Positions 1 through 18,746 of a DNA stretch of 29,297 bases are shown in pieces. This DNA comes from a virus. The translations under genes and the position numbers were made by a program. Location of the stretch: positions 1 through 29,297 of the IMG/VR virus record IMGVR_UViG_3300046816_000121, one strand, 5' to 3'. Under the pieces are notes generated by a model that had not been told where the DNA came from, did not search any database, and was given only the letters and a program-made list of their open reading frames with translations. Numbering within the stretch: position 1 is the stretch's first letter; every line of letters begins with the position of its first letter.

Positions 1-14
1 AGGCGGGTTGATCC

Positions 15-1679
15 GTGGCGACGATCACGATTGCCGAGCGCGAGCAGAAGCGGGTGAAGGCGATCTCGGCTCCGGTCACGTTCGAGTCAGATCTCCTCGC
101 GGCCGTTCGCGAGATGCTCGCCGCGGCAACAGAGATCCGCTTCCCGTCGACGCGATACCGCGCGGACCCCGTTGCGTTCTTCCGCGAGATCCTCGGGCTC
201 GAGCCCTGGTCTCGCCAGGTCGAGATCCTGGAGGCTGTGCGGGACAATCCGCGCGTCGCGGTTCGCAGCGGCCACAAGATCGGCAAGTCGAACGTCGCCG
301 CGGGCCTCGCGCTCTGGTACTACTGTTCTTTCCCCGACGCGCGCGCGATCATGTCTTCGACGACGGCGCGCCAGGTCGACCAGATCCTTTGGCGCGAACT
401 GCGAATGATGCGCGCGCGCGGCGGACGTTGTGTTGCGTGCAAGCTCGAAGACCCGGACGGCAGAAGGATCAAGCGCCCGTGCCCGCATTCGGCGACGATC
501 GACGGCGAGATCGGCGAGCTCGCGAGGACGGGCCTCAAGTCCGACGACTTCCGCGAGGTCGTCGGCTTCACGGCGCGCGAGGCGGAGGCCGTCGCCGGGA
601 TCAGCGGGCGCAACTTGCTGTATCTCGTCGACGAAGCGAGCGGCGTACCGGACGAGATCTTCGAGGCGATCGAAGGCAATCGCGCGGGCGGCGCACGGAT
701 TGTCATGTTCTCGAATCCAACGCGCACGAGCGGCGAGTTCTTCGAGGCGTTCCACGGGAAGAAGAGCTTCTACAAAACGATCACGGTCTCGAGCGAAGAG
801 ACGCCCAACGCGGTGAGCGGAACGAACTCGATCCCGGGCCTTGCTGAGCGCGAATGGATCGAGCTGAAGCGCGAGGAGTACGGCGAGGAGTCGGCGCTAT
901 ACAAGATCCGGATCAAGGGCGAGCACGCGCTACACGAGGACGGGCGCATTTTCTCCGTGCATGCGATCGCGCAGGCCCAACAGCGCTGGCACGAGACGCC
1001 GGAGAGCGGGCGTCTTTTCGTCGGTCTCGATCCCGCCGGCCCGACGGGCAGCGGCGACGAGACCGTTTTCTCGACGCGACGAGGGCTCAAGCAACTCGCG
1101 ATCGTTCCGATGCGCGGACTGACGGACGAAGCGCACCTCGTGCACCTTCTCGGGCTCCTCGCGAAGCACAAGCTCCCGCGTGAGACGCCGGTCGTCGTCG
1201 TCGATCGCGAAGGCTCTATCGGCTCGAGCCTCTACGGGCTCTTGCGCAACTACGCGGAGATGCACGCTGGCGCCTTTGAGCTTGTGGGTGTGCGCGCGTC
1301 GGATCGAGCGATGCGACAGCCGTTTATATATGCGCGCATGCGTGACGAACTCGCGGCGAACCTCGAAGCGTGGATCCGCGACGGCGGAGCGATCCTCGAA
1401 GACACGAAGCTCGAGGCGGAGCTCCATGAGTGGGAATGGAAGCAGCAAGCCGATGGGCGCTTGAAGCTCACGCCAAAGCCGGATGTGAAGAAGAAGCTCG
1501 GGCGCTCGCCGGATCGTTACGACGCGCTCGCCCTCTCCGTGTGGGAGCCGCTCTCCCTTCGAGAAAACGCGCCCGGCGCAGCGAAGGATCTCGCGGAAAC
1601 TAAGGCACACGAGCGCGACGGATACGACGCGCCAGCAATCGATCCGTACGCTGGCGCGGCGACATGGGAGAATCGATAG
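15..1679 (+). CDS. Terminase large subunit (TerL)
   Basis: Packaging motor that pumps DNA into the prohead through the portal and cuts it. The 554-aa protein has the normal TerL length and two expected domains. N-terminal ATPase: Walker A-like RSGHKIGKS at residues 84-92 and Walker B LLYLVDEAS at 201-209 with D206/E207. C-terminal RNase H-like nuclease: acidic residues D339 in GLDPAG, D397 in VVVDREG and D503 in RYDALALS. The GTG start at 15 has AGGCGGG at positions 1-7 as a ribosome binding site. A Cys/His cluster (C139, C142, C156, H158) sits inside the ATPase domain and could bind zinc, which is uncommon for TerL. No small terminase precedes it in the window; it may lie upstream or be one of the next two genes. 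The next gene starts directly after its stop. Confidence 0.95.
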   Translation: MATITIAEREQKRVKAISAPVTFESDLLAAVREMLAAATEIRFPSTRYRADPVAFFREILGLEPWSRQVEILEAVRDNPRVAVRSGHKIGKSNVAAGLALWYYCSFPDARAIMSSTTARQVDQILWRELRMMRARGGRCVACKLEDPDGRRIKRPCPHSATIDGEIGELARTGLKSDDFREVVGFTAREAEAVAGISGRNLLYLVDEASGVPDEIFEAIEGNRAGGARIVMFSNPTRTSGEFFEAFHGKKSFYKTITVSSEETPNAVSGTNSIPGLAEREWIELKREEYGEESALYKIRIKGEHALHEDGRIFSVHAIAQAQQRWHETPESGRLFVGLDPAGPTGSGDETVFSTRRGLKQLAIVPMRGLTDEAHLVHLLGLLAKHKLPRETPVVVVDREGSIGSSLYGLLRNYAEMHAGAFELVGVRASDRAMRQPFIYARMRDELAANLEAWIRDGGAILEDTKLEAELHEWEWKQQADGRLKLTPKPDVKKKLGRSPDRYDALALSVWEPLSLRENAPGAAKDLAETKAHERDGYDAPAIDPYAGAATWENR

Positions 1680-2048
1680 ATGGCAAAGAAGAAGCCGGCC
1701 GAAAAGCGAGTTGCGCTGCGTCTCTCTGGGGCTGTGATCGCGGGGATCGACGCTGTGCGAGGAACGAAGTCGCGAGCGTGGACGATCCGCGAACTGTTGA
1801 TCTCGGAACTCAAACGGCGCGCGAAATCTCGGCGTAGCGTGGCCAGCAAGAAGAAGCGGCTCGCTGCGGCAAGAGCAGACGAAAGAAGCTGGGCGCGGGC
1901 GATGCGCACCGAGCGCAGGCGCGCGAAGGAACGCGAGGCCGCCGAGAAGAAGCAGGCCCGGGCGGACGCGAGGCGATTGCGCAAACCGGTGGTGGTTACC
2001 CTTTCGCGAGAACAGCTGCGTCTGCTCAATTGGTATTACAAAAGATGA
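1680..2048 (+). CDS. Basic protein with ribbon-helix-helix-like N-terminus
   Basis: A 122-aa, very Lys/Arg-rich protein. Residues about 9-50 alternate as in a ribbon-helix-helix DNA-binding domain: a short strand (VALRLS), a helix (GAVIAGIDAVRG) and a second helix (WTIRELLISELKRR). Residues 50-105 form a highly charged helical segment rich in R, K, A and E. The ATG immediately follows the terminase stop, so the two are probably translated together. Its place between terminase and portal suggests a role in packaging (possibly an unusual small terminase) or in late regulation; neither is shown. The RHH reading is by eye only. Confidence 0.7.
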   Translation: MAKKKPAEKRVALRLSGAVIAGIDAVRGTKSRAWTIRELLISELKRRAKSRRSVASKKKRLAAARADERSWARAMRTERRRAKEREAAEKKQARADARRLRKPVVVTLSREQLRLLNWYYKR

Positions 2049-2269
2049 CGCCGGGCAGGCGCTCGCTCGTCGCGATCCTTCAACGCACGACGGGTGCGTT
2101 CGTGGCGGCGCGTTGTCGCGTGTCGAGGTCCGCAGTTTCTTCGTGGGCAACCGGCGCGTGTGTGCCGTCGCCGTCGGCCCGGCAACTGCTCGAAAGCAAC
2201 TACGGAATCAGATCCGACGGATGGGCGTTGCCCGACTTTTCAAAAACGCGCGCGAGACGTCGGGCGTAG
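2045..2269 (+). CDS. Small HTH DNA-binding protein
   Basis: A 74-aa protein resembling a Cro/C1-type helix-turn-helix. Residues about 18-50 contain FVAARCRVSRSAVSSWATG, with the SRSAVSSW recognition-helix pattern, then a short PSPSARQLLESNYGI segment typical of small phage XRE-like proteins. I chose the ATG at 2045 because it overlaps the previous stop as ATGA; an in-frame TTG at 2030 is a weaker alternative. It lies between the RHH-like gene and the portal, where a small terminase DNA-recognition subunit or a regulator could sit. Function cannot be settled from sequence alone. Confidence 0.65.
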   Translation: MTPGRRSLVAILQRTTGAFVAARCRVSRSAVSSWATGACVPSPSARQLLESNYGIRSDGWALPDFSKTRARRRA

Positions 2270-2308
2270 TCCAGTCCGAACACGTCCGGACCGTGCCATG
2301 GCTCGGGC

Positions 2309-3643
2309 GTGGGATTCGTCCAGCGAGTTGCGGCCCTCATGGGGATCAGTGCGTATGCGCTGCCTCCGTCGCCGCTTCCGAGTCTCGACGACTATTCCGT
2401 CGAAGAGGTCCGCGCTGCGTTCGGCGGTCAACTCCAGACCGCGCCCTCGAGCAAAACCCGCTGGTACCTCTCCGACCTCGAAGCGGCTGAGCACGCATCC
2501 GACACGGGGTGGCTCGCGTCGGCTGCGCAGCTCATTCGCGCGATGCGAAAAGACGGCGTGCTCGCGGGCGTGCTCTCGACGCGCACCGATGGGCTTGTGC
2601 GTCTGCCGAAGAGATTCCGAGGCGACCAACGCATCGTCGCCGCGCTCGAGCAAGGTCACGAGCTGTCGCGAAGCGTCTTCGATGAAATGTTTCCGCCCGC
2701 GGAGATCGCGTTACTCGCGTCCGACGGGGTAACGCTCGGCGTCGGCGTCGCGGAGCTCGTGAAGGTCGAGGGGCGCGATTACCCAGTGCTCGTCCGCCTC
2801 GATCCGGAATTTCTGATCTACCGCTGGAATGAGAACCGCTGGTATTTCCGATCCATCGCGGGACTGATCCCGATCACACCGGGAGACGGTCGATGGATCT
2901 TGCATGTGCCGGGCGGACGCAATGCGCCGTGGCAGCACGGGCTCTGGCGCGCGCTTGGTCGGGCGTGGATCCGCAAAGAGCACGCGAACATGCACAAGGA
3001 CAATTGGGAGGCGAAGTTAGCCAATCCCGCACGCGTCGCCGTGGCTCCGCAGGGCGCGACCGAAGAGCAGCAAGAGAACTGGTTCCGCCGCGTGATGGCG
3101 TGGGGCGTCAACACCGTCTTCGGAATGAAGCCGGGTTACGACGTGCGGCTCCTCGAGAGCAACGGCCGCGGCTGGGATTCGTTCAACCAAACGATCAAGG
3201 ACCAAAACAACGAGATGACGATCGCGCTCGCTGGCCAAACGGTCACGACCGACGGCGGCGCGGGCTTCAGCAACGCCGACATTCACAAGAGCATTCGCTC
3301 GGACCTGATCCAGGCGACCGCGGACGCTCTCGCGTACACGCTCAACACGCAAGGGCTCCCGCCGTTCATCCTTGAGCGCTTCGGAGAAGAAGCTCTCGAC
3401 AACGGCGCGATCGTGCAATGGGACACGAAGCCCGCGAAGGACCAGAGCACCGAAGCGACCGCGATGGTTCAAGCGGCGACCGCGATCACGACGCTCCGCG
3501 ACACGCTCAGCGCGAGCGGAAAGGTTCTCGACGTCGACGCGCTGTGCGTCCAGTTCGGGATCCCGGTCGTCGCGCCGAACGAAGTCGTCGACGCCGAGGC
3601 CGACAAAAAGCCGCGCCTCTCTCTCGTGAAAGAGGCCGCGTGA
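2309..3643 (+). CDS. Portal protein, Mu gp29-like (DUF935 type)
   Basis: Forms the dodecameric ring at the head vertex through which DNA passes and to which the neck attaches. The 444-aa length is typical. The C-terminal half has DUF935-like character: IKDQNNEMTIALAGQTVTT, followed by a segment with DLIQATADALAYTLN and then LPPFILERFGEE. The central region (YRWNENRWYF, then LWRALGRAWIRKEHANMHKD) also fits. The start is uncertain: GTG at 2309 has only a weak ribosome binding site, and ATG at 2339 is in frame and would remove 10 residues. The stop overlaps the protease start as TGATG. No gp30/F-type minor head gene follows, unlike in Mu. Confidence 0.88.
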   Translation: MGFVQRVAALMGISAYALPPSPLPSLDDYSVEEVRAAFGGQLQTAPSSKTRWYLSDLEAAEHASDTGWLASAAQLIRAMRKDGVLAGVLSTRTDGLVRLPKRFRGDQRIVAALEQGHELSRSVFDEMFPPAEIALLASDGVTLGVGVAELVKVEGRDYPVLVRLDPEFLIYRWNENRWYFRSIAGLIPITPGDGRWILHVPGGRNAPWQHGLWRALGRAWIRKEHANMHKDNWEAKLANPARVAVAPQGATEEQQENWFRRVMAWGVNTVFGMKPGYDVRLLESNGRGWDSFNQTIKDQNNEMTIALAGQTVTTDGGAGFSNADIHKSIRSDLIQATADALAYTLNTQGLPPFILERFGEEALDNGAIVQWDTKPAKDQSTEATAMVQAATAITTLRDTLSASGKVLDVDALCVQFGIPVVAPNEVVDAEADKKPRLSLVKEAA

Positions 3644-5127
3644 TGGCGTGGTCGAAGAAAGAGCCGCGCGAGTTCCGCCCGAAGGGCGCGCTTGCGCTCG
3701 ACCCGAAAGCGTTCGGGCTCATGTTCGCGCTCGCGGAAGAGCCGGCCGTCGATGTCGTTGAAGGCGTCGCGCGGATCACGGTGCGCGGTCCGCTTCTTCA
3801 TCACGCGGACTCGTGGGGCTGCTTCGATTCGTACGACGGGATCAAGGCCCGCGTAGCCGAGGCGATCGAGAAGAAGCCGTCGTCCGTCGTGCTCGTGATC
3901 GACTCTCCAGGCGGACTGGTGTCGGGCGTCTTCGAGACGGCACGCGCGATCCGCTCAATGTGCGACGCGGCGGGGGTTGCTCTCTTCGCGTACGTGGACG
4001 GCGCGGCGCAGAGCGCGGCTTACGCGCTCGCCGCAGCCGCTCGGCACATCGCATCACCGGAGACGGGCAACGTCGGCTCGGTTGGCGTCGTCGCGGAAAT
4101 GGTCGACGTATCGGCCGCCGACGCGCGCAACGGGATCGCGTTCAAGATCATCACGTCGGGCGCTCGCAAGGCGGACGGAAACATCCACGTTCCGATCAGC
4201 GACGGAGCGGCCGCGGCGACGCAAAAGCAGGTCGACTACCTCGCCCAGATCTTCTTCAAGCACGTTGCGGCGTTCCGAAACGGAATGAGCGTCGAGCAGG
4301 TGCGCGCGCTCGAGGCGGGAACGTTCATCGGAAACGACGCGCTCGCGCAAGGTCTAGTCGACGAAGTGGCAACGCTCGACGACCTCATGACAACGGCGGC
4401 GACCGGATCGGTTCCCGCGAAAGATGGCTCGGCCCAAGCGGCCAACGGAGAAAAGAAAATGAGCAAGCTATACGAAGACGCGATCGCAGGACTTCGCAAG
4501 GCCGCCGAGAGCGACGACGCCGAAGAGGCGAAGAAGGCGAAGCGCATGCTTCAAGCCGAGCTCGCCGAAGATTCGGACGGCGACAGCGACAAGCCGGAAC
4601 CGAAGAAGGAAGACGCGAAGGCGGACGACTCGGACGGCGACGGCAGCGACGAGCCGAAGAAGGAAGACGCGAAGGCCGAGGGCGACGCGCCCGCGATGCC
4701 TCCGAAGAAGGACGAGGACGCGAAGGCGATGGCCGCTCGCGCGATCGCCAAGGTCGAGTCCTTCGAGGCGGCGCAAGCCAAGGCCGCCGAAGTCTCGGAG
4801 CGCCGCGAGCTTCTCGCCACGCGTCCCGACTTCAGCCAAGAGGTTCTCGCGACGCTCGCGAATGCTTCGATCGAAACGGTGCGCGGCGCGGTGAAGACGT
4901 GGCCCCGCGGTCCGGCTCGCAAGCCGGCGGCCGCGATCTCCGCGATCGGCACTCGCGGCGACGGACAAGGCGACGGCGAAGCGTCGCACCTCCCGCCCGC
5001 GGAGAAGCTCGCGCTCGATCGCGCGATGGGTCTCGTCGACGAGAAGCCCGGCGTTCGCGCCGACGGCAACCGCTTGATCCTCGGCGAGTTCATGCCGGTG
5101 AAGACCGACGACAAGGGCGCTCGGTAA
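3643..5127 (+). CDS. Prohead protease, S49 (SppA-like) family, fused to scaffold
   Basis: A 494-aa protein: an S49 serine protease domain (about residues 40-250) followed by a scaffold-like C-terminus. The family matures proheads by cleaving the scaffold. Visible motifs are VLVIDSPGG (83-91), AAQSAAYALA with nucleophile candidate S124, GNVGSVGVV (142-150) and SGARKADG with candidate K176. The S-to-K spacing of 52 residues equals that of the Ser147/Lys199 dyad of Bacillus subtilis SppA. Residues about 290-345 are an acidic and Lys-rich linker with repeated PKKEDAKA blocks. I start it at ATG 3643, which overlaps the portal stop, rather than further upstream inside the portal gene. The scaffold part is probably also made alone from an internal start (separate entry). 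Confidence 0.9.
   Translation: MAWSKKEPREFRPKGALALDPKAFGLMFALAEEPAVDVVEGVARITVRGPLLHHADSWGCFDSYDGIKARVAEAIEKKPSSVVLVIDSPGGLVSGVFETARAIRSMCDAAGVALFAYVDGAAQSAAYALAAAARHIASPETGNVGSVGVVAEMVDVSAADARNGIAFKIITSGARKADGNIHVPISDGAAAATQKQVDYLAQIFFKHVAAFRNGMSVEQVRALEAGTFIGNDALAQGLVDEVATLDDLMTTAATGSVPAKDGSAQAANGEKKMSKLYEDAIAGLRKAAESDDAEEAKKAKRMLQAELAEDSDGDSDKPEPKKEDAKADDSDGDGSDEPKKEDAKAEGDAPAMPPKKDEDAKAMAARAIAKVESFEAAQAKAAEVSERRELLATRPDFSQEVLATLANASIETVRGAVKTWPRGPARKPAAAISAIGTRGDGQGDGEASHLPPAEKLALDRAMGLVDEKPGVRADGNRLILGEFMPVKTDDKGAR
4459..5127 (+). CDS. Nested in-frame scaffold protein
   Basis: An internal ATG at 4459 (Met273 of the protease ORF) is preceded by GGAG at 4447-4450 with an 8-nt A-rich spacer, among the best ribosome binding sites in the window. 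It would yield a 222-aa protein lacking the protease domain: an acidic, Lys-rich N-terminal region (blocks of PKKEDAKA), a helical segment (residues about 90-120) and an end with MGLVDEKPGVRADGNRLILG. Lambda C/Nu3 and Mu I/Z use the same layout, with scaffold made from an internal start in the protease gene. This is inferred from that precedent plus the visible ribosome binding site. Confidence 0.78.
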   Translation: MSKLYEDAIAGLRKAAESDDAEEAKKAKRMLQAELAEDSDGDSDKPEPKKEDAKADDSDGDGSDEPKKEDAKAEGDAPAMPPKKDEDAKAMAARAIAKVESFEAAQAKAAEVSERRELLATRPDFSQEVLATLANASIETVRGAVKTWPRGPARKPAAAISAIGTRGDGQGDGEASHLPPAEKLALDRAMGLVDEKPGVRADGNRLILGEFMPVKTDDKGAR

Positions 5128-5201
5128 CGAGCGGCGCAGCAAACCAAACGCGACAACGACTCTAGGGCGCCCGAAGCGGCGAATCGAAAAAGGTTGAGAC
5201 C

Positions 5202-6236
5202 ATGACGGAACGAATGACGAAGGAAAAGGACGCGGGTTATCTCGAGTTCGTGCTCACGAGCGCGGCGGTCGCGGTCAAGGGCGAGGTCGCTTGCCTCGAC
5301 ACCTCGACCGGGATTGTGACCGTCGGCGGCACGTCGACGACGCTGATCCCGATCGGCTACTTCACCGAATCGCTCACGGGCGACGGGACCACGAAGACGT
5401 CGATCAAGCTCTTCCAGGAGCTTCGCCTTCACTGGCTCGACAACGACGACAGCCCGAACGACGTGCAGACCAGCGACGTCGGAAATGAGGTCTACCTCAA
5501 GGACGGCAAGACGGTCTCGACGCTCTCGACTGGTCGATCGATTGCGGGTCGCGTCTTCGCGATCAGCACGCTCGACGGCGTTCTCGTGCAAGCGGGCGCG
5601 GCAGTCATGGGCCCAACCGGCGGCGGCGTCGCTGGCGGCGCGGTCGCATCGCGCGCGGCGCTCAAGGGCGTCGGCGCGACGTCTCGGTACGACGGGCAGC
5701 TCGTGCTCGTGAAGACCGACGGGTCGATGTGGCGATTCGTTGCCGCGAGCATCGTCGAAGCCGACGGCGCCGACGAACTCGCGATCGCGCCGACGAGCGG
5801 GACCGGCATGTGGCTCCGCGCGGACAAGAGCTTCGTGATGAAGCTTCCGATCGATCACACCATGTCGGACGGTCAGGAGATCTGCGAGATCCCGGCCGGC
5901 ATGGCGGTCAAGCTCGCGGCCGAGCCGTTCTGGGAAGTCACGACCGGATGGACCGGCGGATCGAGCGCGTCGATCGGAATCGCATCGAGCCAGACCGGAT
6001 ACAACACGGCGGGCGACTTGCTCGGCGGCGCAGCCGGCGAGTTGACCGCGGTGCTCGGCACGACCGGCGTCAAGCCGGGCACGATCGGGCCCCATGTCGA
6101 CACGCTGGTCGAGCGTCAAGCGCTCGTCATGGTGTCGGGCGACACGATCACCTACGAGAAAATCGCGGACACGTACGGAGCCGGCGCCGGCTTCGTGTGC
6201 ATCCCCGTTCTCGTCGCGACGGTCGCGGGCGGCTGA
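5202..6236 (+). CDS. Capsid decoration (head-stabilising) protein, multi-domain
   Basis: A 344-aa protein between scaffold and major capsid. Its N-terminal half (about 1-130) is beta-rich and resembles small capsid cement proteins: KGEVACLDTSTGIVTVGG, then IPIGYFTESLTGDG and GRVFAISTLDGVLVQAGAA. The remainder adds at least two beta-rich modules, a Gly/Ala linker (PTGGGVAGGAVAS, about 139-151) then VKTDGSMWRFVAAS, and later IPAGMAVKLAAEPFWEVTTG with TAGDLLGGAAGEL. Typical decoration proteins are 110-150 aa, so this one is enlarged and probably exposes extra domains on the capsid. ATG 5202 has AAAGG at 5190-5194. Position and N-terminal character support the call; the C-terminal domains could instead bind receptors or surfaces. 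Confidence 0.65.
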   Translation: MTERMTKEKDAGYLEFVLTSAAVAVKGEVACLDTSTGIVTVGGTSTTLIPIGYFTESLTGDGTTKTSIKLFQELRLHWLDNDDSPNDVQTSDVGNEVYLKDGKTVSTLSTGRSIAGRVFAISTLDGVLVQAGAAVMGPTGGGVAGGAVASRAALKGVGATSRYDGQLVLVKTDGSMWRFVAASIVEADGADELAIAPTSGTGMWLRADKSFVMKLPIDHTMSDGQEICEIPAGMAVKLAAEPFWEVTTGWTGGSSASIGIASSQTGYNTAGDLLGGAAGELTAVLGTTGVKPGTIGPHVDTLVERQALVMVSGDTITYEKIADTYGAGAGFVCIPVLVATVAGG

Positions 6237-6261
6237 TCGCTCTTCTCATAACCCAAGCCCG

Positions 6262-6286
6262 GCCCCGCGGTCACGAGCCGCGGGGC
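6262..6286 (+). other. GC-rich hairpin before the major capsid gene
   Basis: A perfect 9-bp stem, GCCCCGCGG at 6262-6270 and CCGCGGGGC at 6278-6286, with a 7-nt loop. It is followed by TTAGGGCGTT and no T-tract, so it is not a standard intrinsic terminator. It sits in the 105-nt spacer between decoration and capsid genes and may act as an attenuator, a processing site or an mRNA-stabilising structure. Confidence 0.6.
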
Positions 6287-6341
6287 TTAGGGCGTTAGAG
6301 GGACGCCGCGCGCTCCCAAAAGACGAAAAGGAAAATCCAAC

Positions 6342-7373
6342 ATGCCCGCGTTGACCCCATCGTTTCTGTACGACCTCGAGAGCAATCTCCGCCTCATCAC
6401 GTCGCGAGAGTATGAGCGCCTGACGCGCTCGCTCTGGTGGACGAAGATCGCCAAGCGCATGCCGAGCGGCGCGAAGAAGGAGCGGATCAACTGGCTCCTC
6501 GACACGGCGAAGATCGAGCGGACCTCCAAGGGAGGCGGCGAGGTCTCTTTCGAGGATCTCGCGATGCAGACGACCGAGTTCGAGAACCTCAACGCGGCCG
6601 CGGGCCTCAAGCTCAAGAAGGAGCAGCTTGAGGATCTCGACGGCAACGGCGTCCAGCTCGCGACGCACTGGTCGCGCATGATGGGCGCGTATGCGGCTTA
6701 CTGGCCGCAGAAGATGCTCGCGCAGGCGATCATCGCGAACCCAAACACGTACGACGGGCGCCCGTTCTTCGACACGGCGCACCCGTTCAACCCGTTCAAG
6801 ACGAGCCTCGGCACGTTCAAGAACGTGTTCACCTCGAGCTCGAGCGGGATCTACCCGGGCGCGCTGAAGATCGACAACTCGGTCGATCTCGAGACCGCGG
6901 TCCAGAACGTCGCCAAGGCGATCGCGTACATCGCATCACTAAAGATGCCCAACGGCGAGGACCCGCGCTTCCTCAAGGTCGCCGGGATCGGCGTGCCTCC
7001 GGCGCTCGTCGCTCGAGCACAGCAGATCACCAACGCGAAGTTCATCGCTCAGGCGGCGGGCAGCGCAGCGGGCAGCGGCGACGTCGAGGCCGTGGTGCGC
7101 AACTTCGGACTCGGCCAGCCGTTCGAGATGCCGGAGCTCGGCTCCGCGTTCGGCGGCTCGGATACGAGCTGGTACATCCTCACCGAGGAGATCACCAGCA
7201 ACGATCTCGGCGCGTTCGTGTACGTCGACCGTGAGCCGTTCTCGGTCGTTTACCACGGCCCGCAGACCGACGCGGAGCTTGCGCGCAAGCGTGAGTTTCA
7301 GTGGACGACCGAGGGCCGAAACGTTGTGGGCGCGGGTCATCCATACCTGCTCTTCCGAGCGGACGCCTCCTAA
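6342..7373 (+). CDS. Major capsid protein, Mu gpT-like
   Basis: The 343-aa main shell protein. The N-terminus (MPALTPSFLYDLESNLR), the central part (AYWPQKMLAQAIIANPNTYDGRPFFDTAHPFNP) and the C-terminal part (TSWYILTEEITSNDLGAFV) follow the Mu-like major head subunit family. The DG-PFF-THP motif is a good family marker. A purine-rich AAAAGGAAAA precedes ATG 6342. The gene is isolated by 105-nt and 122-nt spacers, unlike nearly every neighbour, which suggests separate control of its expression. Confidence 0.9.
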   Translation: MPALTPSFLYDLESNLRLITSREYERLTRSLWWTKIAKRMPSGAKKERINWLLDTAKIERTSKGGGEVSFEDLAMQTTEFENLNAAAGLKLKKEQLEDLDGNGVQLATHWSRMMGAYAAYWPQKMLAQAIIANPNTYDGRPFFDTAHPFNPFKTSLGTFKNVFTSSSSGIYPGALKIDNSVDLETAVQNVAKAIAYIASLKMPNGEDPRFLKVAGIGVPPALVARAQQITNAKFIAQAAGSAAGSGDVEAVVRNFGLGQPFEMPELGSAFGGSDTSWYILTEEITSNDLGAFVYVDREPFSVVYHGPQTDAELARKREFQWTTEGRNVVGAGHPYLLFRADAS

Positions 7374-7390
7374 CAAGGACTACCGAAAGG

Positions 7391-7434
7391 GGAGGGCGAC
7401 GCGCGGTCCTGGCCATGGTCCCGCGTCGCCCTCC
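7391..7434 (+). other. Strong 13-bp stem-loop after the capsid gene
   Basis: Perfect inverted repeat GGAGGGCGACGCG (7391-7403) and CGCGTCGCCCTCC (7422-7434) with an 18-nt loop, 18 nt after the capsid stop. No T-run follows, so a classic Rho-independent terminator is unlikely. It may be a partial terminator or a 3' stabiliser of the capsid mRNA, reducing readthrough into lower-abundance tail genes. Confidence 0.65.
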
Positions 7435-7448
7435 GACAGCAACACCCG

Positions 7449-7473
7449 GCCCGCTGCCTATCAAGGCGCGGGC
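7449..7473 (+). other. Second small hairpin with GGGCTTAGGGC repeat
   Basis: GCCCGC (7449-7454) pairs with GCGGGC (7468-7473). The 3' arm runs into GGGCTTAGGGC (7470-7480), which also occurs at 6283-6293 directly after the hairpin before the capsid gene. The arrangement (CCCGGCCC, hairpin, GGGCTTAGGGC, GAG-rich ribosome binding site) is shared by both spacers around the capsid gene. Confidence 0.45.
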
Positions 7474-7495
7474 TTAGGGCATTGAGAGACATTAC

Positions 7496-7990
7496 GTGAC
7501 CGCCTATCTCGACCTCGACGCGTTCAAAGCTCGCTCGGACATGCCGGCGACGGACGTTGACACGCTCGACGCACGCGAGACTGGATTCTTCGACGCGGCG
7601 CTCGAGGACCAGTCCCGATGGATCGACTCGCGCCTCTCGAAGCGATATGCGGTTCCGTTTCTCGCGCCGTACCCGCGCGCCGTCATGCGATGGCTCGCGA
7701 GGCTCGTCACGGTCGATGCGTACCTAAAGCGCGGAGTCGATCCGAACGACTTGCAATTTGCGATCACGACCGCGAAGGCGGAAGAGGCGAAGGCCGAGAT
7801 CAAAGAAGCGGCAGACGAGCAGAACGGTCTTTTCGAGCTTCCGCTTCTCGAGGGCGGCGCCACGGCGGCGACGCGCGGCGGGCCACTCGGCTACTCGGAG
7901 GCGAGCCCGTATGTGTGGACGGATCGACAAGGCGCGACCGGAAGCAGTGAAGACGCGTCGGGAACCGGAAGCGGTGACGGCAATGGATGA
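7496..7990 (+). CDS. Mu gp36-like (DUF1320) head-tail joining protein
   Basis: A 164-aa protein. Residues 1-110 match the DUF1320 pattern of a helical head-completion protein: start MTAYLDLDAFKAR, then FFDAALEDQSRWIDSRLSKRY and AVMRWLARLVTVDAYLKRG. In the family it joins the portal side of the head to the tail. The C-terminal about 40 residues are Gly/Ser-rich and probably disordered. GTG 7496 has GAGAGA at 7484-7489 upstream. The end overlaps the next gene by 8 nt. Confidence 0.8.
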   Translation: MTAYLDLDAFKARSDMPATDVDTLDARETGFFDAALEDQSRWIDSRLSKRYAVPFLAPYPRAVMRWLARLVTVDAYLKRGVDPNDLQFAITTAKAEEAKAEIKEAADEQNGLFELPLLEGGATAATRGGPLGYSEASPYVWTDRQGATGSSEDASGTGSGDGNG

Positions 7991-8384
7991 CTTCCAAATC
8001 CTTGACGATCACATCGCGCGGCTCCGGGTCCTTGTCGACCTTCCGAAGGACGGCGCTGATCGCGCAGCGGGTCTGATTCGCACCGAGATCGGTCGACAGG
8101 TCGCGGCGGGAACCGACCCAGAGGGTAAGCCATGGGCGCCGCGCAAGGCGGACGGTGCGCAGCCGCTCGTCAACGCAGCAAAGGACATTCGCGTTGCCGG
8201 ATACGAGAACCTAATCGTCGTTCGAATCCTCGCGCGCGAGCTCGTCCTTCATCACTACGGCTACGCCCGAGGGAACGTTAGACGGCAAATCATTCCAATC
8301 GGGAAGCTCCCCGATTCGTGGGCGAGCGCAATCAAGAAGTCGCTCGAAGAAGAATTCGCAAAGACGATGGGCGTCGCCGCCTAA
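7983..8384 (+). CDS. Tail completion / virion morphogenesis protein (Mu gpG-like)
   Basis: A 133-aa protein of the phage virion morphogenesis type, which finishes the tail end or the neck. Family marks are IRTEIGRQVAAGTDPEGKPW followed by APRK in the middle and IPIGKLPDSW near the end. I start at ATG 7983, inside the end of the previous gene, because the family similarity begins there (MDDFQILDDHI). In Mu the gpG gene lies before the protease; here it sits just before the sheath, so the order differs. Confidence 0.75.
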   Translation: MDDFQILDDHIARLRVLVDLPKDGADRAAGLIRTEIGRQVAAGTDPEGKPWAPRKADGAQPLVNAAKDIRVAGYENLIVVRILARELVLHHYGYARGNVRRQIIPIGKLPDSWASAIKKSLEEEFAKTMGVAA

Positions 8385-8396
8385 GGAGACCGGGTC

Positions 8397-10196
8397 ATGA
8401 GTCAACCGAAAGCGACAGTCAACGAGATCGACGGCGGTCTCGGCGTATTGCCTCCGAGCGAGGGCGAGCTGTACGCGCTCATCGGCGTCTCGACGAAGGG
8501 CACCGAGAACGCGCCCGCAACGTACGGGAACAAGGAAGAGCTTGTCTCCGACTTCGGCGCCGGCCCGCTCGTCGAAGCCGCGGCGCACTTCATCAAGAAC
8601 TACGGCAACCCGGTGGTCGTTGTGCGCAGCGCGCAGAGCGTTGCGGGCAGCTTCGATTCGCCGGTGAGCGCTGTCGATGGAGACACGACGGGCTTTACCG
8701 TGACGGGCGCGGGGTCCGCAACGCCGACGATGCACACCGATCCCGATCCTGATCAGGCAATGCAGGTTCAGATCGTGTTCATCACGGGCGGGACGATCGG
8801 GATGGCCGGAATGGTCTATCAGATGACCATCGACGGCGGCGACTCGTGGGGCTTCGCGGTCCCGCTCGGCACCGCGACCAGCATTTCATTTCACGGCGTA
8901 CAGGTCGACCTCGGAAGCGGGACGATCAACTCTGGAGAGTCCATCTCGTTCTCGTGCACCGCGCCGATCCTCGCGAGCGCGGGATCGGTCACGCAAGATC
9001 CATGGGACGGATCGGCCGCGCCGACCGTCGGCGCGAATGAGCCCAACGACGATTATCAGCTGTATGTAAAGTTCCTCACGGCGGGAACGATCGGGTCGGC
9101 GTCGCCTGCGATCACGTATCAGTGGTCGGTCGACGGCGGCCGCACGCTCTCCGCGGTGACGTCGCTCGGAACCGACGACACGATCAGTTTTCCGGGAACA
9201 GGGCTCACGGACGGCACGCCGATCCAGGTCGCGTTCACGCACAGCACCGTTGCGGCGGGCGACACGCTTCAATTCACGAGCTTCGCGCCGTGCTGGAATA
9301 CGAGCGACCTGTCGGCTTCGCTCAACGCGCTCGCGGCGACCGCGGCCGTGTGGGAGCTCGTGCACGTCGTCGGCCCGATGACGGCGGACGCGTTCGACCT
9401 CCTCGAGACCTCTGTACCCGCGATGCTCGCCGCGGGTAAGGCGCACGCATGGATCGGCAACGCGCGCATGCCGAACCCGGGCGAGGACGAGGCAACGTAC
9501 GCGGCGTCCATTGAGGGCGTGTTCTCGTCGAAGGCGACGAAGTTCGGAGATCTCTGCGCGGGCGCGTGCAAGCACACGTCCAGCGTCAGCGGGAGAAAGT
9601 ATCGTCGTCCGATCGCATTCGCTTACGCTGCGCTCGAGGCGTCGGTCTCGCAAGAGGTCGACACGGCCGACACGTCGCTCGGCCCCTTGCCCGGTGTCGC
9701 CATCCGCGATGCGAACGGCAACCCGGACGAGCACGACGAGACCGTTTACCCGGGCCTCGACGATGCTCGATTTACCGTGCTCCGCACATGGCCGCGGAAG
9801 GCCGGTGTGTACGTCAATCGCCCGCGTCTCTTCTCGCCGGACGGCAGCGACTTTCAGTTGCTTCCGCACCGTCGGGTCATGAACGCGGTTCACATCGCGC
9901 TTCTCGACTACTTCGAGGACCGATTGAACAAGCCGCTCCTCGTGAACGCATCGACGGGCTTCATCCTCGAGAGCGAAGCGCGCGAGATCGAGACCGGCGC
10001 GATGGCGATCATGCGTGCAGTCGCGCTCACGAAGCCGAAGGCGAGCGCGGTGAGCTTCACGCTTCAGCGTCGAGACAACCTTCTCTCGACGAAGACGTTG
10101 CGAGGAGACGCGCGTGTCGTCCCGCTCGTCTACATCGAAAACGCGGTCCTCACGCTCGGGTTCTCAAATCCGGCTCTTCAGATTCAGGCGGTCTAG
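8397..10196 (+). CDS. Contractile tail sheath protein with two inserted repeat domains
   Basis: A 599-aa sheath subunit. The N-terminus (VNEIDGGLGVLPPSEGELYA) and C-terminus (TWPRKAGVYVNRPRLFSPDG, then LPHRRVMNAVHIALLDYFED and NPALQIQ) are sheath-like. Between them are two related beta-rich repeats, about 120-190 and 220-298. Each has a GTIG element (GGTIGMAG / AGTIGSAS), a DGG turn (MTIDGGDSW / WSVDGGRTL), LGT followed by T-ISF, then a G-S/DT-SF/QF-S/T strand. Such insertions usually face outward on the sheath. The ribosome binding site AAGGAG (8384-8389) is strong. Confidence 0.88.
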   Translation: MSQPKATVNEIDGGLGVLPPSEGELYALIGVSTKGTENAPATYGNKEELVSDFGAGPLVEAAAHFIKNYGNPVVVVRSAQSVAGSFDSPVSAVDGDTTGFTVTGAGSATPTMHTDPDPDQAMQVQIVFITGGTIGMAGMVYQMTIDGGDSWGFAVPLGTATSISFHGVQVDLGSGTINSGESISFSCTAPILASAGSVTQDPWDGSAAPTVGANEPNDDYQLYVKFLTAGTIGSASPAITYQWSVDGGRTLSAVTSLGTDDTISFPGTGLTDGTPIQVAFTHSTVAAGDTLQFTSFAPCWNTSDLSASLNALAATAAVWELVHVVGPMTADAFDLLETSVPAMLAAGKAHAWIGNARMPNPGEDEATYAASIEGVFSSKATKFGDLCAGACKHTSSVSGRKYRRPIAFAYAALEASVSQEVDTADTSLGPLPGVAIRDANGNPDEHDETVYPGLDDARFTVLRTWPRKAGVYVNRPRLFSPDGSDFQLLPHRRVMNAVHIALLDYFEDRLNKPLLVNASTGFILESEAREIETGAMAIMRAVALTKPKASAVSFTLQRRDNLLSTKTLRGDARVVPLVYIENAVLTLGFSNPALQIQAV

Positions 10197-10232
10197 GGCG
10201 CGGGCGACCGCGGATCACGAAAGGCGTAGACG

Positions 10233-10715
10233 ATGGCGATCGATCCGATTCGAATCAACGGGAACCAGCTTGGTTGGGGCTCGATCCTTGCCAAGGTTGG
10301 CGGCAACGTGATTACGGGCTTCACGTCGATCAAGTATTCCGACAGCCGCGAGCGCGTGAAGGCGTACGGCATGGGGCGGCATCATGCGCCGCGCGGCCGG
10401 TCGCCTGGAAAGTACCAAGTCGATCCCGTCACGCTGAAAGGGTGGAAGGGAAGCGTTCAGGCACTCCGCGAAGCACTCGCAAGCGCGGCACCGGATGGCA
10501 TCTCATACGGCAACGTCGAGTTTGAGCTCGTCGTCCAGTATGTCGAAGCCGACGACAAGCCGATCACGGTTCACCTCGAGCGTTGCGTGATCACGAAGAA
10601 CACGGCCGACGAAGAAGAGAGCGCAGATCCGCTCTCCGAGGAGATCGAGATCGATTGCATGAAGATCCGCCGCAACGAGATGACGCTCTTCGACTCGACG
10701 GGCGGTGCTCCGTGA
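10233..10715 (+). CDS. Tail tube protein
   Basis: A 160-aa protein directly downstream of the sheath, where contractile phages place the tube (Mu gpM position). The sequence is beta-rich, ending in LSEEIEIDCMKIRRNEMTLF, as expected for the Hcp/tube fold. SD-like AAAGGCG lies at 10220-10226, and the spacer contains CTAGGGCGC, also seen before the decoration gene. The stop overlaps the next start (GTGA). The call rests mainly on position and size. Confidence 0.8.
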   Translation: MAIDPIRINGNQLGWGSILAKVGGNVITGFTSIKYSDSRERVKAYGMGRHHAPRGRSPGKYQVDPVTLKGWKGSVQALREALASAAPDGISYGNVEFELVVQYVEADDKPITVHLERCVITKNTADEEESADPLSEEIEIDCMKIRRNEMTLFDSTGGAP

Positions 10716-11158
10716 CCGATCAGGGGGAACAGGCAAGGCTCACGCAAATCGAAGCCGAGCTTGCGGAGATCGAAAAGGCGCGCGCAGAGAAGCAGGCGAC
10801 GCGCGCGGCCACTTCGAAGATCGAGGACGCCGAGCGACGCCTGCGCGAGGCAAAGGCGCTCGCGAAGTCCGAAGACGAACACGGGCCGCTCGGCGAGAAG
10901 GTCGCGACGGTCGAAACGCCCCGCGGGATCGTGATCGTCAAGTGCCCGCCGTCGGCGCGAATGAACAAGTTTCTCGATTCGAAGCAAACCGCGGCCGACG
11001 TGCTCGCGCTTGTGCGCCCGTGCGTGGTGTATCCGGATCTCGCCGCTTTCGACGCGATCCTCGAGGAGTTCTCGGGACTCCTCGCCGGCGCCGACGGCGT
11101 GGCGGACAAAGTGCAAGCGCTCTCACGAGGGCGAGCAAAAGAGGTGTCGGGAAAATAG
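10712..11158 (+). CDS. Tail assembly chaperone (G-type, unshifted product)
   Basis: A 148-aa protein between the tube and tape measure genes, the standard site of the tail chaperone. Residues 1-55 are a charged coiled coil (LTQIEAELAEIEKARAEKQA); the rest forms a small globular domain. It overlaps the tube gene by GTGA. It ends in TCG GGA AAA TAG, so a -1 shift on G GGA AAA bypasses the stop and yields the longer G-T product. The chaperone is thought to coat the tape measure protein while the tail is built. Confidence 0.85.
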   Translation: MTDQGEQARLTQIEAELAEIEKARAEKQATRAATSKIEDAERRLREAKALAKSEDEHGPLGEKVATVETPRGIVIVKCPPSARMNKFLDSKQTAADVLALVRPCVVYPDLAAFDAILEEFSGLLAGADGVADKVQALSRGRAKEVSGK

Positions 11159-11355
11159 TCGAGCTGCACAGACGCGCGCAATCCGACCTCGGGATAGCGG
11201 CAACTTGTCTGATGGCGGCTCTACGGATCGACGAGGAGAAGGAGACCGAGGGCGAGGAGATCAGGACAGCAACGGGCGCGATGCTTCTCGCCGAAGCGAT
11301 ACACGAGCTGAAGAATATTCGACGGCTACTCACACCGAAGAAGAGCGATAGATAA
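10712..11355 (+). CDS. Tail assembly chaperone G-T fusion by programmed -1 frameshift
   Basis: Predicted 214-aa product: 148 residues from the first frame plus 66 from the -1 frame, which continues IVELHRRAQSDLGIAATCLM, then EIRTATGAMLLAEAIHELKN, and stops at TAA 11353-11355. The T part has no start codon or ribosome binding site suited to independent translation. Its stop abuts the tape measure ATG. Lambda G/G-T and many tailed phages use the same arrangement; the frameshift is inferred from the slippery site and the reading frames. Confidence 0.85.
11149..11155 (+). promoter_or_regulatory. Canonical -1 ribosomal slippery heptamer GGGAAAA
   Basis: In the G frame the codons are TCG-GGA-AAA-TAG, giving the X_XXY_YYZ heptamer G_GGA_AAA directly before the stop. 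After slipping, the ribosome reads GGG-AAA-ATA-GTC. Lambda uses the near-identical G_GGA_AAG. The stop codon following at once may add pausing. Confidence 0.85.
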
Positions 11356-13200
11356 ATGGCAGGCGAGAAAACCGCGTCGTTTGCGGTCAAGATCAAAGAC
11401 GAAGGCTCGAGCGCCGCGAATACGCAGGCGGACGCCCTCGAACGCCTGCGATCGAAGATCGTCGGAGGGCAAAAGGCGCTCGGCGAGATGCAAGCTGCGA
11501 TGCGCCGCCTTCAGGGAGGAAGCTCGACGAACGTTGCCGCGTTTCGGGACCTCAAAGCCAAGATCGACGCACAAAAGAACGCCATCGCCGATGCTCAGGC
11601 CAAATACCTGGACCTCGGAGGCTCTCTCGAGAACCTCAAAAAGAAGAGCCGCGGCACGGGCGACGCTTTCTCCAAATTCCGCGGCACGGCGTCACAAATG
11701 CCGGGCCCGCTCGGATCTATCACGGCGAAGCTCTCGTCGATGGGCGAGCTTCTCGTGGGTGGCGGCCCGATCGCGGTCGGGATCCTTGCAATCGTCGCCG
11801 CGATGACAGCGCTCACCGTGGCGGCCGTCGCCGCCGGAGCCGCGCTGCTTCAGTACGGGATCGGGCAGGCCAACGCGCGGCGAAGCGAGCTGCTACGGCT
11901 CGAGGGTCTCACGACGATGCGGAATTACATGGGCATCGCGGCGGGCAAAGCGAGCGTCCTTCAAGAAGCGATCGACAGCGTGAGCGGCACGGTATCGATC
12001 GGACGGAGTCAAGTAGAAGGGTACGCGGCCGGTCTCTATCGAGCAGGCATGCGCGGCGAGAATCTCCGCCAGTCGCTTCAGGCCGTGGCGACGACCGCGG
12101 CGGTGCAGGGCGACGCACATGCGCACATGATCGCCGGTCTCGCGGTCGGCTACGCGCGCACGGGTCGCAACGTGACCGACCTCGCGAACCGGATCCAGGG
12201 CCGACTAGGCGGGATCGCGGCCGCGCAGATGCTCGATCTCGACGTGCAAACGCAAAAGCTACACGAGAGCTTCGCGCAGCTCTTCTCCGGCCTGCGCATC
12301 GAGGGGTTGCTCTCGGCGATCAACTCAATCACGTCGCTTTTCTCACAGAGCACAGCGAGTGGTCGCGCCCTGCACGCGATGATCGACGCGCTCTTCAATC
12401 CGCTTTTGAACAGCGCGAACGGCGCTCAGCCCGTGATCAAGCGCTTCTTTCAGGGGATGATCATCGGCGCGCTTCATCTCACGATCTTGTTTTTGCGAGT
12501 GAAGAACTCGCTCGTGAGCGCGTTCGCGCACAGTCCCTTTGCGAAGTTCTTTCACGGGCTCGACGCGGGGAGTGCATCGCTTCAGGCGGGCGCGATCGTC
12601 GTCGGAGCGTTCGCCGCGGCGGTTTTGCTTTCGGTTGGCGCTGTCGTGTTGCTCGTAGCAGCGGCCGCGTCGCTCGCGGCTCCGTTCGTCGCGTTCGGTC
12701 TCGCGATGAAATGGGCGTTCGACAAGGTCGTCGCGGCGTACACGTGGATCTCGTCGCATTCGTGGGGCGACCTCGGCCGCTTGCTGCTTCGCGGGCTCGT
12801 CGACGGTCTCAAAGCAGACGCCGCACTACTTCTCAGCGCCGTCCGCGGGATCGCCGACTCGGCGAAGCACGCACTAATGGGTGCGCTCGGAATTCACTCG
12901 CCCTCGAGGGTTTTTGCCGAGCTCGGCGTCCAGGTGCCTCGAGGGTTCGCGCAAGGCGTGGAGTCCGGAGCCGGAGAAGTCGGAGCGAGCGTCGGGTCCA
13001 TGGTTTCCGGCGCGTACGACATGCCCGAAGCGCCTACGGGAGGCGCTTCGAGCACCTCGCACACGACGAGCGTATCGATCGGTGACGTGCACGTGCACGC
13101 GCAGACGAACGACGCGGCCGGACTGGCGGAGGCGTTCAAGGAGAAGGTGTCGGAGCTTTTCGAAGGCGCCGCGCTCACCGTGGCGAGGCCGACGCCATGA
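11356..13200 (+). CDS. Tape measure protein
   Basis: A 614-aa protein that sets tail length; at about 1.5 Å per residue it would give a tail near 90 nm. The N-terminal 100 residues are helical and charged. Hydrophobic membrane-like segments are visible at about 138-165 (GPIAVGILAIVAAMTALTVA) and about 412-455 (AAAVLLSVGAVVLLVAAAAS), typical of proteins that enter the host membrane. The C-terminal motif HALMGALGIHSPSRVFAELG is a recurring tape-measure signature. Its ATG immediately follows the TAA of the frameshifted chaperone, and its TGA overlaps the next ATG. Confidence 0.92.
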   Translation: MAGEKTASFAVKIKDEGSSAANTQADALERLRSKIVGGQKALGEMQAAMRRLQGGSSTNVAAFRDLKAKIDAQKNAIADAQAKYLDLGGSLENLKKKSRGTGDAFSKFRGTASQMPGPLGSITAKLSSMGELLVGGGPIAVGILAIVAAMTALTVAAVAAGAALLQYGIGQANARRSELLRLEGLTTMRNYMGIAAGKASVLQEAIDSVSGTVSIGRSQVEGYAAGLYRAGMRGENLRQSLQAVATTAAVQGDAHAHMIAGLAVGYARTGRNVTDLANRIQGRLGGIAAAQMLDLDVQTQKLHESFAQLFSGLRIEGLLSAINSITSLFSQSTASGRALHAMIDALFNPLLNSANGAQPVIKRFFQGMIIGALHLTILFLRVKNSLVSAFAHSPFAKFFHGLDAGSASLQAGAIVVGAFAAAVLLSVGAVVLLVAAAASLAAPFVAFGLAMKWAFDKVVAAYTWISSHSWGDLGRLLLRGLVDGLKADAALLLSAVRGIADSAKHALMGALGIHSPSRVFAELGVQVPRGFAQGVESGAGEVGASVGSMVSGAYDMPEAPTGGASSTSHTTSVSIGDVHVHAQTNDAAGLAEAFKEKVSELFEGAALTVARPTP

Positions 13201-13766
13201 CAACGATTAACCTAATCAAGAATCCGGTGAACTTCATCGTCCTTGCTGGGCAACGGTCGCCGGGGATCGCGACGGTCAAAGGCGCCGACAGCCCGCGCAA
13301 GTGGGACCAGCGCGGCGGCTACGGACTAATCGGGGCAACCGCTGTGTTTCACGGCCGCAAGCTCTCCGAGTTCACGGTCGACCTCGTATTGAGCGAGGAC
13401 GCCGATTGGGACGCGTGGAACGCATGGAAACATCTTGTATTGGCACCGCCGAGCGAGATTCAGAGCGATCCGAATAGCATCTTGCGCCCGACGGCGATCC
13501 GCCCGCGCGCGCTCGACATCGAGCATCCAATTCTCGCAGATCTCGGGATCCGCTCCGTCGTGATCGAGAATTGCTCGCAGCCCGAGCAGACCGCCGACGG
13601 CCAGTGGACGATCTCGATCAAGATGCTCGAGTTCCATCGGCCGCATTTCACCGTTGCGCGCCCGACCGGAAGCGCGGCAACGCCGGTGGACCCGGTTGAT
13701 GCGCAGATCGAAGGGCTTACTCGGCAAGTTCAAGCGCTCTCAGGCGAGAGCGGGGATTCGCACTAA
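13197..13766 (+). CDS. Baseplate hub adaptor / tail tube-to-baseplate protein
   Basis: A 189-aa protein directly after the tape measure, where contractile phages encode the protein linking tube and hub (around Mu gp43). It is beta-rich (FIVLAGQRSPGIATVKGADS, GRKLSEFTVDLVLSEDADWD) with a short C-terminal helix (IEGLTRQVQAL). Assignment is by position and general character, not by a strong motif. It is coupled to both neighbours (ATGA before, TAATG after). Confidence 0.55.
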   Translation: MTTINLIKNPVNFIVLAGQRSPGIATVKGADSPRKWDQRGGYGLIGATAVFHGRKLSEFTVDLVLSEDADWDAWNAWKHLVLAPPSEIQSDPNSILRPTAIRPRALDIEHPILADLGIRSVVIENCSQPEQTADGQWTISIKMLEFHRPHFTVARPTGSAATPVDPVDAQIEGLTRQVQALSGESGDSH

Positions 13767-14968: not shown

Positions 14969-15378
14969 CCCTTGCGACCGGCTACGGCTCCGACCTCGAC
15001 TGCGGCTCCGATCTCACGTCGGACATGGGCGAAGTCGACCCGTTTTCGCCGCGCGCTCTTGCGCAGGCGCTCTTGCGCCGGCTCGATTGTCCTAGAGGCG
15101 GTCTCCCCGAGGACGATGACTACGGGACCGATCTCGTGTCGATGCTCAACCGCGGGTCGACCGCGGCCGACGTACAAAACCTCGGGAGCAAGATCCGGAG
15201 TGAGCTTGCCAAGGACGATCGCGTTGATTCGCTCGTTGTTGTGGTCTCGCCGTTTCCCAACGGTAAAGACATCACGGTCAACGTTCAGGTGACGCCGGTC
15301 GATCCCGTAATCGGTACGTTTTCTATGACGTTCGTCGCGACGACGACCGAGATCGTTTTGCGGGAGATCTCCACATGA
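14965..15378 (+). CDS. Baseplate wedge protein W (gp25-like / Mu gp46-like)
   Basis: A 137-aa protein placed between the spike and baseplate J genes, as W-type proteins are. The sequence has the family's short length and a mixed fold: SPRALAQALLRRLDCPRGGL near the start, DDDYGTDLVSMLN, SKIRSELAKDDRVDSLVVVV, then a beta hairpin end (TFSMTFVATTTEIVL). ATG 14965 overlaps the previous TGA. It joins the sheath to the wedge at the baseplate. Confidence 0.75.
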   Translation: MTLATGYGSDLDCGSDLTSDMGEVDPFSPRALAQALLRRLDCPRGGLPEDDDYGTDLVSMLNRGSTAADVQNLGSKIRSELAKDDRVDSLVVVVSPFPNGKDITVNVQVTPVDPVIGTFSMTFVATTTEIVLREIST

Positions 15379-18312: not shown

Positions 18313-18326
18313 CAGGAGAATTCGAA

Positions 18327-18746
18327 ATGGTACGCGTTGACGAAAATCCCGGTCACGTCTGCGGCTCCGAGTCGCGCGAGGGCGGTTGGCAATATCCGAA
18401 CCTCGACAACGCCGGAGTTGTGATCACGCTTCCGGTCGGTCAAGAGGGCGAGCACGTCAACATTCAATGGATGCCCGTTGACGTGAACGCCGGTCCGCTT
18501 CTTTGGGGGTACTTCGCGACCTTAGAAGCGGCGGAAGCCGGTTTCGACACGACGACATCGAGCGGTGACACGGGCGTTCCCGTTCCGAACGCGCCTAGAA
18601 AGATGGAACGCGGCGGAGAGGACCGACAGGTTCCGCACGGTCGGCGTTTTCTTCGTCTTCAGGCGGCGACCACTGGAAAGATCTTCGCGCTCGTCTCGAG
18701 CGCCGACAAGCATCGCAACCCGACCGGCACGGATCCGGACGTCTAA
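18327..18746 (+). CDS. Unknown small structural protein in the fibre region
   Basis: A 139-aa protein not recognised. It begins with a Cys-containing segment (GHVCGSESREGGWQYPNLDN) and has a beta-rich central part (VVITLPVGQEGEHVNIQWMP). It has a good ribosome binding site (AGGAG at 18314-18318) and lies between two fibre-type genes. It may be a fibre adaptor or cap; nothing more can be supported. Confidence 0.7.
   Translation: MVRVDENPGHVCGSESREGGWQYPNLDNAGVVITLPVGQEGEHVNIQWMPVDVNAGPLLWGYFATLEAAEAGFDTTTSSGDTGVPVPNAPRKMERGGEDRQVPHGRRFLRLQAATTGKIFALVSSADKHRNPTGTDPDV

Follow-up and report, generated by a model that had tools for sequence, protein, structure and literature searches.

Related hairpins on both sides of a Mu-like capsid gene look like a shared but undescribed device for setting capsid amount

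Tailed phages need far more major capsid protein than the products of its neighbours, all of which come from shared late transcripts. How such a ratio might be set is the question raised by the locus described here. The DNA we analysed, called the window throughout, is a virus record of 29,297 bases from IMG/VR (IMGVR_UViG_3300046816_000121) with a GC content of about 65%. Inside it lies a Mu-like head and contractile-tail block, in which profile matches identified genes for a terminase, a Mu-type portal, an S49 protease, a virion structural protein, the gpT capsid, a gp36-like protein and a DUF2586 sheath; the source is an uncultured, Mu-like phage. An earlier note on this DNA had pointed to two related hairpin spacers around the capsid gene and had proposed that they probably set capsid expression by RNA processing, attenuation or a late promoter. 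We consider a role of the spacers in capsid expression plausible, and we compared them with those of other phages.

Two related hairpins around the capsid gene

The features of the capsid region are as follows.

5202..6236, + strand: upstream virion structural protein gene (phrog_1731, E 1e-11), for which a "decoration-like" role is a guess
6237..6341, + strand: spacer of 105 nt from the decoration-like gene to the major capsid gene
6257..6302, + strand: element copy 1 (fold z -5.5; found by models R2, E 0.0013, and R3, E 1.5e-7), with outer stem 6257-6260/6290-6293, inner stem 6262-6270/6278-6286, 3' bulge TTA at 6287-6289 and tail GTTAGAGGG at 6294-6302
6326..6331, + strand: ribosome binding site AAAAGG of the capsid gene, outside the element (direct reading)
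6342..7373, + strand: major capsid protein gene, Mu-like gpT (Pfam PF10124, E 6.4e-18; phrog_371, E 1.8e-21)
7374..7495, + strand: spacer of 122 nt from the capsid gene to the gp36-like gene
7391..7434, + strand: strong hairpin right behind the capsid gene, 13 perfect bp plus inner pairs (fold z -4.8)
7445..7489, + strand: element copy 2 (fold z -4.8; R3 E 1.9e-10; no R2 match at E<=10), with outer stem 7445-7447/7477-7479, inner stem 7449-7454/7468-7473 together with 7456-7458/7465-7467, bulge TTA at 7474-7476 and tail ATTGAGAGA at 7481-7489
7496..7990, + strand: gp36-like gene with a GTG start (Pfam PF07030, E 1.3e-5)

The coordinates given for the spacers in the earlier note were correct on re-reading. 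Both spacers carry CCCGGCCC (6258-6265 and 7445-7452) and GGGCTTAGGGC (6283-6293 and 7470-7480), the latter match extending to 13 of 14 bases, and the perfect 13-bp stem of the second spacer pairs 7391-7403 with 7422-7434. The statement that almost all other genes of the block overlap proved too strong: among 22 junctions between 23 ORFs picked by hand, one of them with its start out of frame, 9 overlap, 2 abut, 5 are separated by 1-15 nt and 6 by more, while the 105-nt and 122-nt spacers are indeed the largest gaps in this rough gene set. The longest ORF of the S49 protease overlaps the portal gene by 226 bases (3418-3643), and the true protease start probably lies further downstream. The purine-rich ribosome binding site claimed behind each hairpin does not hold for copy 1, where the capsid gene has its own AAAAGG outside the element and starts 48 nt past the hairpin; the start codon after copy 2 is 15 nt past its hairpin.

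The element has an outer stem of 3-8 bp and, set off by a small asymmetric bulge, a GC inner stem-loop with at least about 6 pairs; a G-T-purine tail follows. There are two copies in the record, and GGGCTTAGGGCNTT is found nowhere else in its 29,297 bases. An 11-base word shared by the two spacers was reached in 16 of 2000 dinucleotide shuffles of both, so the repeat alone is only moderately unlikely and the case rests on comparisons across phages.

The spacers as a whole fold with z-scores of -3.4 (first) and -4.9 (second), and the trimmed hairpins, at -4.8 to -5.5, are stable and GC-rich, as those of intrinsic terminators are. A U-rich tract directly after the stem is absent at both spacers, the tails being GACAGCAA and TTAGGGC, and no terminator-like site was found at either. 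As for the late promoter suggested earlier, positions 1-20000 hold 0 sigma-70-like sites, against 1.6 in shuffles (phage-specific promoters lie outside the scope of this consensus), and the compensatory stem changes reported below point to RNA. Intrinsic terminator and sigma-70 promoter were thus rejected as identities, since their defining features are absent.

By its name, the Mu-gpT-DE RNA motif is presumably a structured RNA tied to the gpT capsid family. It is catalogued as Rfam RF03012 (named in a passage of PMC7657543), and we rejected it as the identity of the element, given that it had no match in window positions 5200-8400 at E<=10. Its gathering score of 49 bits was reached in none of 34 records, and the window and a second phage with the same arrangement (G003, below) had no match at E<=1. 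More generally, no family of Rfam 15 reached its gathering score in the window or in 13 + 12 further loci; the sub-threshold matches were weak ones to microRNA or sRNA families.

At E 1e-5 the GenBank phage set gave no match to the capsid protein, nor did a pattern-based search of species-genome contigs bring up a confirmed relative. The strict element pattern matched once in species genomes, at a scaffold end of a Pedobacter MAG (L095). Capsid relatives are encoded in 112 IMG/VR stretches, of which 80 were retained as capsid-relative loci.

Unrelated phages carry the element next to capsid genes and gene starts

A scan of IMG/VR with the pattern GGGCTTNGGGCNTTRAGAG, which was derived from the window and a few relatives, yielded 14 stretches, 13 of them distinct. 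In all 13 distinct matches a helix of 6 pairs or more ends precisely at GGGC, as compared to 28 of 82 GGGCTT sites in the same loci, a comparison set that includes most of the elements themselves. A permuted control pattern gave 7 matches versus 15 for the shortened real pattern, and the 6 scorable permuted matches had helices of 4 pairs at most. In raw form, the tail pattern is not abundant. Matches to a looser pattern (L096-L104) were dropped by eye as chance. Among these, L097-L104 are near-copies of one coding-looking stretch and also score a 7-pair helix, because their pattern demanded GCCC upstream. Two more loci were left out of the tabulated instances: L105, and L088, which nevertheless has a 6-pair helix and whose record scores E 4e-4 with model R1.

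Model R1 was made from 8 instances, two being those of the window. It found two copies each in G001, G002, G003, G006 and G008. Conservation among relatives, which the earlier note had made a condition of its proposal, is patchy: at E<=0.05, R1 matched 7 of the 80 loci with capsid relatives, including two near-copies of the window, and the rest have a variant, another hairpin or none. Only weak matches (E 0.99 or more) were obtained in 15 of 16 further gpT loci. Matches in cultured phages, all at E 0.9 or more, were taken as chance, and the one inspected lay inside an annotated gene.

Model R3 was made from 9 instances in phages not found as relatives by the window's capsid, two of the instances coming from G003. 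Over the window and 61 relatives (660 kb), it ranks window copy 2 (E 1.9e-10), L066, L067 and window copy 1 (E 1.5e-7) at the top, with the fifth match at E 0.028. These E-values are flattering, above all that of copy 2, since the R3 seeds were gathered with the window-derived tail pattern or from a record found with it. The compensatory changes, model R2 and the G003 bracket are independent of R3.

A 25-nt core, CCCCGGTAGGCYTNGAGCCCCGGGG, was first noticed in L068, L072, L145 and G008 and is absent from the window. It was found in 18 viral contigs, which should far exceed chance for a word of this length, and had no match in plasmids. In 7 of the 18 contigs, from two capsid families, the core starts 20-40 nt after the stop codon of the major capsid gene. 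Six of these encode gpT capsids (L068, L170, L171, which is the contig of L072, L179, L181, which is the contig of L145, and L184), while the core of L178 follows a gene of the unrelated capsid family PF09950 (E 5.7e-44). Four core contigs were known before the scan and three of them are capsid-linked (L068, L171, L181); the fraction among the new contigs is 4 of 14. Another 8 of the 18 cores precede a gene for a protein of about 440 aa without assigned identity, in large phages. In an alignment of seven of these eight proteins, the first shares 73-90% identity with the remaining six, and we therefore count them as one clade. Small genes follow the remaining cores, those of L175, L180 and L177, the last being the G008 contig. 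As read by eye, each core is on the same strand as its capsid gene or next gene (for L178 the next gene was not named).

The protein of about 440 aa (L174:4779-6113, L183:2243-3529 and homologues) is very conserved and adjoins the element in eight contigs of 10-111 kb; it had no match in Pfam, PHROGs, PDB or GenBank phages, and its fold prediction has a pLDDT of 28. A few tens of nt after the element and before the next gene, GCGTCGGCCCAAGAAACGGC or a close form of it occurs in L169, L172, L174, L182, L183 and L185, and this stretch may belong to a longer leader as its second structured part.

The model of the 18 core contigs, R2, contains no window sequence. It matches window copy 1 (E 0.0013 in 156 kb, E 0.0057 in 668 kb), and window copy 2 was not found at E<=10. 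Over 63 of the 66 dereplicated gpT loci (the other three are in its seed), R2 gave seven matches at E<0.05, namely L069, G003 twice, the window, L039, L005 and L055, and all seven adjoin the capsid gene or the gene before it.

The arrangement of the window is repeated in G003, a 16.7-kb record whose gpT capsid (Pfam E 1.5e-30) has 25% identity to that of the window over 200 residues, and for which no capsid relatives were found beyond G003 itself. Its capsid gene has a copy of the element on either side: copy 1 ends 50 nt ahead of the capsid start (48 in the window) and copy 2 ends 15 nt ahead of the next start (15 in the window). On a by-eye reading, the gene after the G003 bracket is the small gene preceding the gp36-like one. 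An upstream copy is rare, being seen in the window with its near-copies and in G003; in L005, the nearest distinct relative (79%), it is shifted upstream by one gene and stands ahead of the small gene that comes before the capsid gene. In G009, which has a lambda-type portal, a copy lies behind the S49 protease gene, 11 nt before a start codon.

The position of hairpins, regardless of their sequence, was compared at 93 gpT loci reduced to 66. An additional gpT search had supplied 16 loci, 11 of which went into the 93; L143, L154 and L156 were already present, and L152 and L153 were judged to be near-duplicates of L151. Within the 100 nt downstream of the capsid gene, 25 of 63 loci have a perfect stem of 8 bp or more (12 of 189 when shuffled); within the 100 nt upstream, 2 of 66 do, the window among them (Fisher P 1e-7 for downstream against upstream). 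Inside the capsid gene the counts were 8 and 5 of 66, and 500 nt further on 3 of 60. The post-capsid stems differ in sequence between lineages. These counts indicate that a hairpin after the capsid gene is common in the gpT group, that the element is one way to supply it and that the upstream copy is a rarer addition. The extra hairpin of the window has a position common to many gpT relatives, and its sequence is shared, among the spacers listed, only with L003 and L004. Taken with the G003 bracket and the post-capsid cores in 7 of 18 contigs, the position-conserved hairpins after gpT genes bear out the earlier description of the spacers as related, structured and capsid-linked. In two records of about 62 kb (L137 and L136, that is G001 and G002), several small genes seem to be preceded by hairpins of other sequence, as judged from a noisy scan.

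Base pairing, start codons and tail

Compensatory changes in the stems, proposed earlier as a check in related phages, were seen in both stems. In all 26 instances, pairs 5 and 6 of the inner stem (P2) are of standard kind, 3 pair types occurring at the former and 4 at the latter. For the outer stem, the arms of 27 instances paired better with their own partners than with swapped ones in all 20000 permutations. Part of the 27 instances were chosen by eye, and the P2 arms were delimited by complementarity, so that the P2 tests lean towards pairing; the outer-stem permutation was therefore repeated on the 18 core contigs, for whose selection the outer stem was unused. Here swapped arms reached the true pairing in 0-2 of 20000 permutations, and in 11 of 20000 when three similar contigs were removed. 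A fixed-register count of outer-stem pairs in the 18-contig alignment showed no covariation above shuffles; the register slides between phages, and only the register-free test shows the pairing.

Among the 27 instances, 18 lie within 22 nt of the start codon of an ORF of at least 40 codons and 9 do not. In the pattern-found subset, 8 of 13 are near a start as compared to a background of 22.6% (P 0.003); leaving out the window copy from which the pattern was derived makes it 7 of 12 (P 0.008). G008 holds four variant copies on both strands (L134 4345-5803), each 15-23 nt before the start of neighbouring small genes. The copies of G004, G006 and G007 are 43-88 nt from a start, and in L072 the hairpin stands 2 nt from a GTG and has no purine tail. 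The tail variants GTTGAGAG, GTGAAAGG, GTCAGAGG and similar ones are purine-rich. Their distance to the start does not always suit ribosome binding, so we do not take the tail for a simple Shine-Dalgarno sequence.

Possible roles of the hairpins and known systems

We propose, with a probability of roughly 0.6, that the hairpins in the spacers act in cis on the mRNA, between cistrons, and determine capsid output through stability, processing or partial termination. On a polycistronic late mRNA, the hairpins would mark off the capsid cistron. The post-capsid hairpin, helped by the extra 13-bp hairpin, would block 3' exonuclease, be processed or partly terminate transcription, and the capsid message could thereby outlast that of the minor downstream genes. 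Owing to the purine tail, the ribosome binding site that follows would lie just clear of the stem. The upstream copy may give the capsid message a protected, structured 5' end and may uncouple the capsid gene from the gene upstream. More tentatively, the hairpins may form an undescribed mRNA family in unrelated uncultured phages, probably exchanged in cassettes, whose bracketing of capsid genes would be a common dosage device read by a conserved host factor such as a ribonuclease, RNA polymerase or the ribosome.

The same hairpins could instead act mainly as transcription attenuators, that is, as U-poor terminators that lower transcription after and before the capsid gene, with the purine tail incidental. 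Post-capsid hairpins are conserved in position, as this would have it, and prediction of intrinsic terminators often misses mapped phage termination sites (5 of 22 were predicted in LUZ100, in the part of PMC10134795 that treats them, and 13 of 66 in CKA15, in that of PMC12282133). Among the gpT relatives, L157 has a long hairpin followed by eight T after its capsid gene, like a classical terminator, where GC-rich relatives have U-less hairpins, and L056 and L064 have, by eye, a hairpin with a T run there. However, not one of the 43 longest perfect post-capsid stems (at least 7 bp) has 5 T or more among the 8 bases behind it, in a test that covers the longest stem only and missed L157; sequence conservation does not end with the stem but reaches the tail; and attenuation directly upstream of the capsid gene would reduce capsid. 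We regard attenuation as the main role as unlikely. A role as translation-start elements, comparable to the Start Associated Sequences (SAS) of mycobacteriophages and with the hairpin and purine tail read by a ribosome or a protein, also strikes us as doubtful. The 18 of 27 instances near a start, the enrichment in the pattern subset and the spacing of the four G008 copies speak for it, whereas copy 1 and the first G003 copy stand 48-50 nt from the start, behind further leader, the G004, G006 and G007 copies are 43-88 nt away, and the L072 hairpin lacks the tail.

Two further explanations dispense with RNA function. DNA sites (late promoters, operators or recombination boundaries) would account for a near-palindromic core common to unrelated phages, but we hold them very improbable in view of the missing sigma-70-like sites, the pairing kept while bases change, the asymmetric bulges and the core's place on the strand of its capsid or next gene (by eye, and with the L178 next gene not named). 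That GC-rich hairpins merely resemble each other by chance is a thought invited by a GC of about 65% and by the 16 of 2000 shuffles, and we give it hardly any credit: R2 finds copy 1 with no window sequence in it at E 0.0013, the same bracket occurs in G003, and the R3 E-values point the same way, although their seeds were gathered with a window-derived pattern.

Published systems resemble the mRNA hairpins proposed here in part. In T7-like LUZ100, passages of PMC10134795 describe a capsid gene apparently controlled by a local promoter before it and a strong terminator directly after it. The window shares with LUZ100, so described, a major capsid gene bracketed by expression signals, one directly after the stop codon; it differs in having the same RNA hairpin on both sides, no promoter or U-tract that we could find, and a different phage lineage. 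The likeness to intrinsic terminators lies in a GC-rich intergenic hairpin behind a gene, while the element has no U-tract and its hairpin is followed by the outer stem and a conserved tail.

The start-linked repeats of mycobacteriophages and Microbacterium phages are, going by the passages that describe them, the nearest published repeats. The SAS/ESAS of cluster K mycobacteriophages comprise a 13-bp sequence, GGGATAGGAGCCC, a few bases before start codons, in 11-19 copies in the non-structural-gene half of the genome; about half have an inverted repeat upstream, ribosome pairing alone is no full explanation, and their authors saw little support for RNA hairpins (sections of PMC3203893). Common to these and the window is a short repeated sequence at gene starts, whereas the window sequence differs, its 2 copies are at the capsid gene with copy 1 48 nt from the start, and pairing is supported. 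In Microbacterium phages, cluster EF has SAS/ESAS and cluster EG has 18-bp inverted repeats 14-22 bp before start codons (sections of PMC7302621). The EG repeats resemble the element as inverted repeats in short intergenic gaps at a similar distance to start codons; they have another sequence, GATCAACCNNGGTTGATC, and stand in 8-10 copies at right genome ends, with no capsid link in those sections of PMC7302621. We recognised no published account of this element in a search of mostly open-access literature, which is weak evidence of absence.

The hairpins look like a shared but undescribed device that sets the amount of capsid protein, as judged from sequence comparison. If it is true that an RNA element recurs at the capsid gene across unrelated capsid families, it would be a new RNA family to annotate in viral metagenomes. 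It would also give a sequence handle on how the capsid ratio is set, and such a handle would reach outside the T7 and mycobacteriophage models.
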